From Paracoccus sphaerophysae (lineage in GTDB: Bacteria > Pseudomonadota > Alphaproteobacteria > Rhodobacterales > Rhodobacteraceae): 64,000 nt of DNA. The DNA lies in NCBI RefSeq assembly GCF_000763805.1, contig NZ_JRKS01000009.1, positions 1 through 64,000 on the forward strand, read 5' to 3'. Position 1 is the stretch's first letter; each line of letters starts with the position of its first letter. Shown piece by piece: positions 6,688 through 9,297 of the stretch. The translations under genes and the position numbers were made by a program. The notes under the pieces are model-generated. The model made no database searches. It had not been told where the DNA came from and saw only the letters and a list, made by a program, of their open reading frames with translations.

Positions 6688-7641
6688 TCAGTCGCCGTAC
6701 GGTGGACGCAGGACGGGGACGGCCGGATCCGCTGTGGCCGCTTCGCCCCCAGGCGCGCCTTCGGTCGCGGCCAGCGGCTGCAGCGCCGAGAAATCGAACA
6801 GCGCCGGGTCGGGCAGATGCGAGGGGCGGACGTTGGTCAGGGCCCGGAACATCACCTGGCGGCGGCCGGGGCTGCGCGCCTCCCACTCGTCCAGCAGCTT
6901 CTTGACCTGCATCCGCTGCAGGCCCTCCTGGCTGCCGCACAGATCGCAGGGGATCACCGGATAGTTCATCGCGCGCGCAAAGCGGTCGCAATCCGCCTCG
7001 GCCACGAAGGCCAGCGGGCGCAGGACGTTCAGGTCGCCCTCCTCGTTCAGCAGCTTCGGCGGCATCGAGGCCAGCCGGCCGCCGTGGAACAGGTTCATGA
7101 AGAAGGTTTCCAGGATGTCGTCGCGGTGGTGCCCCAGCACCACGGCGCTGCAGCCTTCCTCGCGCGCGATCCGGTACAGGTTGCCGCGCCGCAGCCGCGA
7201 ACACAGGCTGCAATAGGTGCGCCCCTCGGGGACCTTGGCCTTCACCACCGAATAGGTGTCCTGATACTCGATCCGGTGCGGCACCGCGCGGTCGGTCAGG
7301 AACGCGGGCAGCACCGTCTCCGGAAAGCCGGGCTGGCCCTGGTCGAGATTGCAGGCCAGCAGGTCGACCGGCAGCAGGCCGCGCCATTTCAGTTCGTGCA
7401 GGACGGCGAGCAGCGTATAGCTGTCCTTGCCGCCCGACAGGCAGACCAGCCAGCGGTCGCCGGGGGTGACCATGTGATAGGTCTCGATCGCCGCCCGCAC
7501 CTCGCGCACCAGCCGCTTGCGCAGCTTGCGGAACTCGGTCGACGACGGCGCGCCGCGGAACAGCGGGTGGATCTCGGCGCCGTCGGGGCCAGTCTCGGGG
7601 CCAGCGTCGGCGTCGTCGGGGGTCAGGTCGTCCAGCATCAT
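6688..7641 (-). CDS. ttcA: tRNA cytidine(32) 2-sulfurtransferase TtcA
   Basis: A 317-residue PP-loop ATPase. Residues 69-74 form the SGGKDS loop that adenylates C32. Two CxxC pairs (C144/C147 in YCSLCSR and C232/C235 in PCDLCGS) are the TtcA-type ligands: three of these cysteines normally bind the catalytic 4Fe-4S cluster. The product installs 2-thiocytidine at tRNA position 32. The start is ATGATG, in which the upstream gene's TGA lies (ATGA overlap at 7638-7641). It is the last gene of a chain running from rpmH, so its expression probably depends on translation of the interrupted gene before it. Confidence 0.93.
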
Positions 7642-8285
7642 TCGAACTCGGGATAGGGAAGCCTGCGGGGGGCACCGCCAAGGGTGCCGGTGGCGGGGTC
7701 GATCTCGGCCAGATGCGCGGTGCCGTCAGCGATCCAGCTGACCAGCCAGCGTCCGGCGCCGGGAGAGACGGTGGCGGGCGCTGCCAGCCCCTCGGCCACC
7801 AGCCGGGGCGCGGTGCCGTCCGCCGCGGTCAGCAACTACCGCAGCCCGTCGCCGGCGGAGAGGGTGCCGTTGCCGTCCCGATCGCTGTCGGCCAGCTGGA
7901 TCAGCGTCCCGGTCACCGGCCCATCGGGCGGGCCGATGTCGTCGACGGCGACCAGCACCTGCCCGTTGGTCGGATAAAGCCAGCGGTCGCCCTGCGGCCC
8001 GCTGTAGAGCAGGTTCACCGTGGCGCCCGAAACCTCCTTGTAGCGATAGCTATCCGCGCCCTGCCAATCGACCAGCAGCGGCGCCCGCGCCAACCCGCCG
8101 CCCAGATCGGAAAACAAGCCCAACCGCATCTCGCGCCGCGCCGCGGCCTGGCCGGACTCGATCGGCATGGCGCTGTCGGTGACGCGGTGGAACGGGTTGC
8201 CGAAGGCCATCAGCAGGACCGCCGCGCCGACCGCCAGCACCATCAGCGCCGCCAGCGCGACGAGGGTATGGGTCAGCCGGTTCAT
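7638..8285 (-). pseudogene. EF-hand-type membrane-anchored protein interrupted by an in-frame amber codon
   Basis: The frame from ATG 8285 encodes an N-terminal transmembrane segment (about residues 7-29), a soluble domain, and a canonical calcium loop DRDGNGTLSAGD (ligands D1, D3, N5, D12). Three codons after that loop a TAG stop occurs (7836-7838). The same frame then continues for 65 more codons of similar composition (LLTAADGTAPRLVAEG onward), ending exactly in the ATGA overlap with ttcA. The simplest reading is one gene of about 215 residues with a CAG-to-TAG change or a sequencing error. A reinitiating TTG directly follows the stop. The function of the family is unknown to me; the context is an operon for tRNA processing and membrane insertion. 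Confidence 0.72.
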
Positions 8286-8410
8286 CCTCTGACGCCCCAG
8301 TTGCCCAACACCCAGGCCAGCAGCGCGGCCAGCGCCAGAGCGGCCACGACCACCAGCAGCAGGCCGGGCAGGATGCGGCGCGGGCGGCGCGGAGGCTGCG
8401 GAGGGGTCAT
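8282..8410 (-). CDS. 42-residue single-pass membrane protein
   Basis: A small gene read directly from the sequence. From ATG 8410 the product starts [16 protein letters not shown], runs into a hydrophobic helix ([19 protein letters not shown]), and ends GNWGVRG. The basic N-terminus predicts a cytoplasmic N-terminus and one membrane helix. Its ATG overlaps the yidD stop (ATGA, 8407-8410) and its TGA overlaps the ATG of the EF-hand gene (ATGA, 8282-8285), which is strong positional evidence that it is translated. No family is recognised. A role with YidD or the following membrane protein is only inference from position. Confidence 0.7.
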
Positions 8411-8658
8411 CGGTGATCCTCATGACAAGGGCGCGGAACCGGCGGCACCGGGTCATACCCCGACCCGCCCCACGGGTGGCAGCGCCCGATCCGGCGCAGC
8501 ATCAGCGCAGTCCCGCGGATCGCGCCATGCCGCTCCAGTGCCTCGAGCGCGTAGACCGAACAGGTCGGCTGAAAGCGGCAGCCATGCCCGATCCACGGGC
8601 TCAACAACAGGCGATAGGCCCGGACCGGCACCGCCACGAGACGCGCGGCCGGCGTCAT
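8407..8658 (-). CDS. yidD: Membrane protein insertion efficiency factor YidD
   Basis: An 83-residue protein with the diagnostic YidD core: an amphipathic start ([12 protein letters not shown]), then [21 protein letters not shown] with both conserved cysteines, and [17 protein letters not shown] near the end. YidD assists YidC-dependent insertion of inner-membrane proteins. Its start overlaps the rnpA stop and its stop overlaps the next ATG, each by 4 bases. YidC itself is not in the window, although many bacteria carry it next to this cluster. Confidence 0.95.
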
Positions 8659-9149
8659 CGCCCGCCCCTGCGCCGGGGCGCGCGGCCCGGATCGGCGGGA
8701 TCGCGGGGGTCGGGGGCCGCGTGGACGCGGGCCAGCGCATGGGCCAGGTCGCCCAGCATCGCGACATAATCTCGGGTCACGGTCGCCTCGGGGCGGCCCA
8801 CCAGCACATAGTCCCAGCCGGGCTGGGCCGCGGTCGGCAGCACCGCGCGCGCGAGGGCGCGCAGCCGGCGCTTGGCGCGGTTGCGTACCACCGCATTCCC
8901 GACCTTGCGCGAACAGGTGAAGCCGACGCGAATCGCCTGAGCCGGCACAGCTTCATCCGCGCGTCGGGGGCGGGCTTGTAGCAGAAAACCCGCCGTCCCC
9001 TGGCGGCGGGCCGAAGCCGCACGCAGGAAATCGGCGCGGCGTTGCAGGGTGGTCAGCCGAGAGGCGGCGCTGTCCGGCGCATGGCCGAACCCGCCCCCGT
9101 CCCGGTCAGCGGGACGCGGCGGGGCGGCTGTGGTCAGCGCCTCGGCCAC
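8655..9149 (-). CDS. rnpA: Ribonuclease P protein component
   Basis: The 164-residue protein subunit of RNase P, which matures tRNA 5' ends. The family signature is [20 protein letters not shown], preceded by [14 protein letters not shown], the usual N-terminus of the fold. I see no ATG upstream of the fold in this frame; the GTG at 9149 lies 13 bp after rpmH and gives an extra Pro/Ala-rich tail of about 30 residues, so the true N-terminus may be shorter. The C-terminus is an Arg/Pro-rich extension, and the stop overlaps yidD (ATGA). Confidence 0.93.
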
Positions 9150-9162
9150 ATCCGCGGCCGGA

Positions 9163-9297
9163 TCAGGCCGACAGGACCTTGCGGCCCTTGGCGCGGCGGG
9201 CTGCCAGAACCTTGCGGCCGCCCTTGGTGGCCATGCGGGCGCGGAACCCGTGCCGGCGCGCGCGAACCAGGTTCGACGGCTGGAAGGTGCGTTTCAT
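9163..9297 (-). CDS. rpmH: 50S ribosomal protein L34
   Basis: A 44-residue, highly basic protein with the invariant L34 sequence [19 protein letters not shown] and terminal [11 protein letters not shown]. It is a structural protein of the large subunit. It is the first gene of the rpmH-rnpA-yidD-ttcA chain and is divergent from the histidine kinase gene. A sigma-70-like promoter is visible about 77 bp upstream. Confidence 0.97.

Follow-up and report, generated by a model that had tools for sequence, protein, structure and literature searches.

A probable gene for a small membrane protein at the end of yidD in some Paracoccus species

A short frame between yidD and its downstream neighbor

YidD is widespread and poorly understood, and a frame of 42 codons that begins within the end of yidD in Paracoccus sphaerophysae raises the questions of whether a protein is encoded there and whether this protein works together with YidD. 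The frame lies in the window, a stretch of 64,000 nucleotides of contig NZ_JRKS01000009.1, and the coordinates of the features discussed are given in Table 1. The original prediction described the frame as lying between yidD and the next frame and sharing an ATGA with each of them, and this observation is confirmed. An AGGA motif is located 6 bases 5' of the ATG of the small gene, inside yidD. The encoded protein has an N-terminus rich in Pro and Arg followed by a single hydrophobic stretch, as had also been read from the sequence, and its hydropathy maximum is 2.92 over 17 residues. The AlphaFold2 model contains a single helix comprising residues 13–41 with a mean pLDDT of 85.9, and the mean pLDDT of residues 21–30 is 98. 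By prediction, from hydropathy and AlphaFold2, the protein thus has one membrane-spanning helix and is most likely a one-helix inner-membrane protein. Under the positive-inside rule a basic segment remains in the cytoplasm, and the basic N-terminus would therefore be cytoplasmic.

Table 1. Coordinates of the small frame, its overlaps, and the neighboring genes in the window
Feature	Position	Strand	Basis or remark
rpmH (ribosomal protein L34), at the head of the string	9163..9297	minus	TIGR01030, PF00468
rnpA (RNase P protein)	8655..9149	minus	PF00825, TIGR00188
yidD (membrane protein insertion efficiency factor)	8407..8658	minus	PF01809 (E 1.8e-27), TIGR00278
ATGA, yidD stop (8409-8407) shared with small-gene ATG (8410-8408)	8407..8410	minus	
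Small membrane protein gene (probable), 42 codons and stop	8282..8410	minus	Sequence reading
ATGA, small-gene TGA (8284-8282) shared with next-frame ATG (8285-8283)	8282..8285	minus	
Downstream frame, formerly read as 'EF-hand'	7638..8285	minus	Hydrophobic N-terminus, D-S-D-R-D-G stretch, in-frame TAG (7838-7836)
ttcA (tRNA 2-thiocytidine synthetase)	6688..7641	minus	NF007972 (E 3.7e-129)

The frequency of comparable frames was counted among the 365 ATG-started frames of 25–60 codons on both strands of the window, with nested starts taken separately. Two of the 365, the small frame among them, reach a 17-residue mean of ≥2.7, and the small frame is the only one that combines this hydrophobicity with both overlaps. 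An ATGA at the start is present in 98 of the 365 frames, and an ATGA start together with an [AG]TGA end in 10.

The names rpmH, rnpA, yidD, and ttcA are based on family matches above the cut-off. The sole yidC match of the window genome is located on another contig (C50), so yidC is not adjacent to the small gene. The frame following the small gene had been called an EF-hand gene, a label that we do not retain. A Pfam search with the part of this frame before the TAG found nothing at E ≤ 1, and a search of the other 124 genus genomes found nothing at E ≤ 0.001, which leaves the D-S-D-R-D-G stretch as the sole basis of the label. The frame is split by the in-frame TAG, and the remainder is open up to the ttcA start. 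A different membrane-anchored frame of 217 residues, with its ATG 13 bases past the yidD end, is positioned between yidD and ttcA at locus L007, and this junction seems to accept extra genes. The layouts of the two frames look alike by eye, though BLASTP of the window's downstream frame against the L007 frame gave no significant match, and homology between the two is not claimed. A family-wide search with the L007 frame gave a match in 1 of 198 genomes (E 8.1e-4). At three further loci that group on the tree (L182, L193, and L221) the ttcA motif is found 1164–1170 bases past yidD, with ∼1 kb of extra DNA between them.

Occurrence in the genus and relation to known families

Searching 125 genus genomes with YidD gave a match in 121, with a sound gene in 119; outside the 119 are G314 and G334, in which yidD is weak or broken, and four genomes with no yidD match. 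G334 is listed as a single contig, and its best YidD match is a weak one broken by four stops, whereas most other genus members have an intact yidD; either yidD loss or an assembly problem is possible. The DNA behind each sound yidD was scanned for short hydrophobic frames. An intact small frame encoding 29–55 residues with one helix was found in 16 of the 119 genomes; a conserved frame of similar size behind yidD in relatives was the check proposed in the original prediction, and in these relatives position and frame are retained. The remaining 103 keep yidD without an intact small gene; presence wherever yidD occurs would be expected of a core part and not of an accessory one. The direct downstream neighbor is ttcA in the 15 intact copies other than that of the window. 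At the 103 loci without the gene, distances were measured to the first in-frame ATG of ttcA. In 58 of them this ATG overlaps yidD or directly adjoins it, in 20 it follows after 1–30 bases and in 19 after 31–120 bases, and in 6 it is farther away or not found. No hydrophobic frame of 24–70 codons was present within 300 bases behind yidD at any of 99 loci not labeled Paracoccus; these were assigned from the title of the record or a genus code and include some species twice as well as MAGs named at the family or class level. One locus without a yidD motif (L030) was left out of the yidD-locus survey.

The gene is present in six of the 11 members of the window's clade, comprising the window copy, L111, L149, L140, L141, and L002. 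A frame broken in close relatives that retain the flanking genes had been proposed as evidence against a gene. Exactly this is seen in L008 and L143, where the frame is shifted and degraded, and in L003, L142, and L169, where it is missing, with the flanking genes retained in each case. In the five intact relatives it is not seen, and protein-level selection is detected both in the family and in the window's clade (see below), so the objection applies to part of the clade only. The frameshifted remnants in L008 and L143 lie just past yidD, and that of L008 is weakly matched in its second half by the profile A3 described below (E 0.23). On a YidD and TtcA tree of 117 genomes the small gene requires at least six state changes; this was a quick tree with SH-aLRT support only, from which the direction of change was not inferred, and L183 and L185, which have no ttcA motif, were left out of it. 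We read this as a gene that is old in the genus and has been repeatedly lost, and repeated gain or transfer could account for the same pattern. The patchy presence, the loss or frameshift of the gene in five members of the window's clade, and the absence from the non-Paracoccus loci indicate that the small gene is dispensable.

To search by profile, a model of 11 relatives (A3) was built with the window copy excluded, and up to 60 first-look candidates were scored per genus genome. The best match of A3 in the window genome is the small frame itself (E 1.5e-9), and the L005 copy is matched at E 2.0e-6. The match to the L018 copy (E 1.7e-4) is not above background, since frames of 882 and 239 codons are matched at E 2.7e-5 and 9.3e-5, respectively. 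Neither the L024 nor the L232 copy is clearly recognized; at E ≤ 1, G006 (L024) is absent among the matches listed and G324 (L232) has one match of 0.895, for which no place is listed. When the full profile was applied to 198 family genomes, with up to 38 first-look candidates scored in each, values of E < 1e-5 were obtained only in G000 and G063, the drawn Paracoccus genomes, and the best value in the other family genomes was 3.4e-4, with matches mainly within long frames. The conserved core consists of a G-L pair past the basic start followed by a stretch composed of Ala, Leu, Ile, and Val, and a Phe-Val-like pair near the end is frequent. What is broadly conserved across the family is chiefly the hydrophobicity, the basic start, and the G-L pair, and the C-termini diverge. 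Compared with its relatives, the window copy has a longer N-terminus and a changed C-terminus.

Pfam and NCBIfam scans of three small proteins, from the window and two relatives, gave nothing above a curated cut-off. The best match of the window copy, to DUF1656, scores 17.2 bits, below the cut-off of 26.5, and membership in that family was rejected; its score against NF038083 is 14.7 with a cut-off of 100. YidD itself (PF01809) is likewise small and linked to membrane insertion and shares the gene string and an overlap with the small gene, but the Pfam scan of the three proteins gave no PF01809 match. No title or abstract opening among the papers listed from the open-licence PMC library describes the small frame, and no paper in that library contains both 'YidD' and 'Paracoccus'. 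The family is a new small one within an already known class, the bacterial small single-span membrane proteins, which likewise have fewer than 60 residues and one hydrophobic helix, are encoded in operons, and are easily missed. The family differs in that it overlaps yidD, is seen only in Paracoccus, and has no curated family match for the three proteins scanned. CcoQ, CcoS, and DltX are among the small membrane proteins named in PMC10903887, which presents the Pro-SMP finder and in its main text has no use of 'yidD'.

Selection on the encoded protein

IQ-TREE codon models were fitted to an alignment of 15 copies and 33 codons; L232, a near duplicate of L024, was left out of these models as well as of the frame controls, the subset tests, and the Shine-Dalgarno energies. 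The resulting ω is 0.296 with F1X4 and 0.208 with F3X4. Relative to ω = 1 on the same tree, fitted as the best of a five-point transition/transversion grid, 2 × ΔlnL is 61 and 93 (30.7 and 46.4 log units), and with F1X4 it is 58 when the tree for ω = 1 is searched anew. The signal does not stem from a single clade, since three subsets each favor ω < 1. In the window's clade (six sequences, ω taken on a grid) ω is 0.3 or 0.2 with 2 × ΔlnL of 28.6 and 39.1, in the clade of L147, L150, L179, and L189 it is 0.29 or 0.17 (16.8 and 28.0), and in the remaining five copies it is 0.31 or 0.29 (14.7 and 15.7). Residue similarity is kept better than when the same substitutions are randomly placed in nine of ten pairs (P ≤ 0.034), and permutation by changed codons or by hydropathy reaches P 0.05 in seven of ten pairs each, the ten pairs being hand-chosen and sharing sequences. 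The small-gene family is under protein-level selection, and a short conserved frame with selection of this kind is one of the marks of a small single-span membrane protein gene.

The other frames of the same alignment behave differently. In the two other forward frames ω is 1.53 (28 stops) and 2.73 (6 stops), and in the three antisense frames it is 1.11 (3 stops), 0.33 (2 stops), and 2.85 (24 stops). Four of the five are thus above 1, and the low value of antisense frame r1 (0.33) counts against the coding reading of the sense frame. That the sense frame is free of stops carries no weight, since intact copies were selected. These controls bear on the idea that the small frame is spurious or only reflects a downstream frame with an extended N-terminus. 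The latter is indeed open to an ATG at 8456, with another ATG 17 bases before the yidD end, but in 15 genomes an intact small frame is followed by ttcA and not by the downstream frame. Together with the stops and the ω values above 1 in the two other forward frames, this makes the idea very improbable, and it was rejected. The small frame is very probably a genuine protein-coding gene that overlaps yidD and has a one-helix membrane product.

The constraint on the window copy itself is a separate matter. The closest named relative by YidD identity, among the matches listed, from which the nearest records may be absent, is Paracoccus sanguinis with 93%. Between the two species, dN of the small gene is 0.32 and dS is 0.29, giving a ratio of ∼1.1, and permutation shows no significance by any of three measures (P 0.26, 0.73, and 0.34); the ratio for yidD and ttcA in the same comparison is 0.07. 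Counting ratios for the listed pairs inside the window's clade span 0.29–1.09. Adding the window copy to the clade contributes no weight, with 2 × ΔlnL of 28.6 with and 28.7 without it under one model and 39.1 and 39.6 under the other. With no constraint detected against P. sanguinis and no weight added in the clade, the constraint on the window copy is loose at best. It could be that this copy is decaying within a real family, with selection relaxed perhaps after the 'EF-hand' frame arrived behind it. The ratio to P. sanguinis, the permutation P of 0.26 in that pair, and the lack of added weight against ω = 1 would agree with decay, as would the longer N-terminus and changed C-terminus, the sister lineages with shifted or missing copies, and the TAG in the next frame. 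However, neither the frame nor the hydrophobic helix is disrupted, the Shine-Dalgarno motif is preserved along with both overlaps, and one of the three permutation measures reaches significance against L149 (P 0.034), the other two being 0.16 and 0.13. We regard decay of the window copy as unlikely.

Coupling to yidD and possible function

The start codons were hand-picked, and longer in-frame starts are available in L005 (ATG at −38), L018 (TTG at −32), and L179 (ATG at −19); the start in L178 is a GTG. The chosen start lies inside the yidD end in all 16 intact copies. The −4 overlap typical of coupled pairs on the same strand is found in 11 of them, including the window copy, and the other 5 overlap by 8 bases. 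Shine-Dalgarno energies were calculated for 13 bases from 16 before the start, paired with the anti-Shine-Dalgarno. The mean over 15 starts is −5.06 kcal/mol, compared with −2.57 kcal/mol in random yidD windows of the same loci (P 5e-5 for so low a mean of 15) and −1.87 kcal/mol at the same place in the 103 loci without the gene. This signal and the kept overlap with yidD point to termination-reinitiation, so translation of the small gene is probably coupled to that of yidD. In PMC10666635, overlaps of −4 and −1 are associated with tight coupling and are enriched in genes for subunits of heteromeric complexes, and coupling is nearly gone at gaps of >20 bases in the six pairs tested there.

The downstream junction is more variable, and across the 15 relatives it spans −4 to +71 bases. 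L005, L018, L024, L232, L157, L179, and L189 have overlaps of −4 or −1, and L140 and L141 have a possible GTG at −4, whereas the first candidate ttcA ATG follows a gap of >20 bases in L002, L111, L147, L149, and L150. The seven overlapping copies, with the two possible GTG starts, would be compatible with an inert peptide whose frame acts as a ribosome relay from yidD to ttcA or as a rearrangement spacer. Such a role is quite improbable, because it would not account for the protein-level selection and because coupling, judging from the pairs in PMC10666635, would be nearly gone at the five loci with gaps of >20 bases.

Another explanation for a single membrane helix beside an insertion-related gene is an arrest peptide of the MifM or ApdP kind, which would monitor Sec/YidC activity and regulate the following gene by stalling while it is itself being translated. 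MifM and ApdP, as described in PMC10987492, are likewise short proteins that contain a single membrane segment and are encoded close to an insertion-related gene, and ApdP-type peptides are found in Rhodobacterales; the copies in L002, L140, and L141 end in proline. These peptides, however, lie upstream of secA, secDF, or yidC, whereas the small gene is downstream of yidD and is followed by ttcA or an orphan frame. Its C-termini are not conserved, and no motif of the R-A-P-P type is apparent by eye. With no conserved C-terminal arrest motif seen and no sec or yidC gene following, this explanation was set aside as highly improbable. An identity as the toxin in a toxin-antitoxin pair is likewise considered unlikely, the gene being tied into a housekeeping string.

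In the explanation that we favor, the small gene would belong to the rpmH-rnpA-yidD-ttcA string in part of Paracoccus. Ribosomes ending yidD would restart at the overlapping ATG, aided by the Shine-Dalgarno motif within yidD, and the small protein would thus be made in step with YidD, as the overlap in all 16 copies suggests. The one-helix inner-membrane product, with its N-terminus in the cytoplasm and few residues outside, may serve as an accessory factor beside YidD at the Sec/YidC insertion site or as a membrane anchor for YidD. A table in PMC8082313 includes YidD in the SecYEG interaction network, the method being in vitro transport/cross-linking. The small protein would be useful yet dispensable, which fits purifying selection combined with patchy presence. 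Taken as a whole, that is, as a real gene coupled to yidD whose dispensable product is an inner-membrane accessory of YidD, this explanation has somewhat less than an even chance of being correct. The accessory or membrane-holding role on its own is a tentative proposal, favored by a tie to yidD that is constant while the downstream side varies. The original prediction had suggested a link to membrane insertion from the position next to yidD; this link is a hypothesis drawn from the overlap, and the location of yidC on another contig, the presence of ttcA downstream in 15 copies, and the 103 of 119 genomes that keep yidD without the gene count against it.

About level with the accessory role stands the possibility that the product is a real small membrane protein unrelated to YidD, either a subunit or modulator of another complex or a free protein, for which the operon provides steady expression. 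CydX, CcoQ, KdpF, and AcrZ are small subunits or modulators of other membrane complexes. The patchy presence of the small gene while yidD is kept, conservation that is mainly of hydrophobicity, the basic start, and the G-L pair, and the location of yidC away from the gene would all be in line with such a protein. The overlap with yidD in 16 of 16 copies, set against a downstream junction that varies over the range given above, speaks for a relation to YidD instead. A narrower version of the accessory role, in which the small protein is a Paracoccus-only membrane partner that is co-translated with YidD and anchors or regulates it at the Sec/YidC site, is doubtful.

The present case illustrates that comparison at the genus level can support a gene of 30–50 codons that is missing from two profile libraries. 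A small protein made in step with YidD and absent in sister species would provide a testable handle on the partners of YidD. If it is a dedicated YidD partner, its gain and loss among sister species would represent a natural experiment on YidD function.
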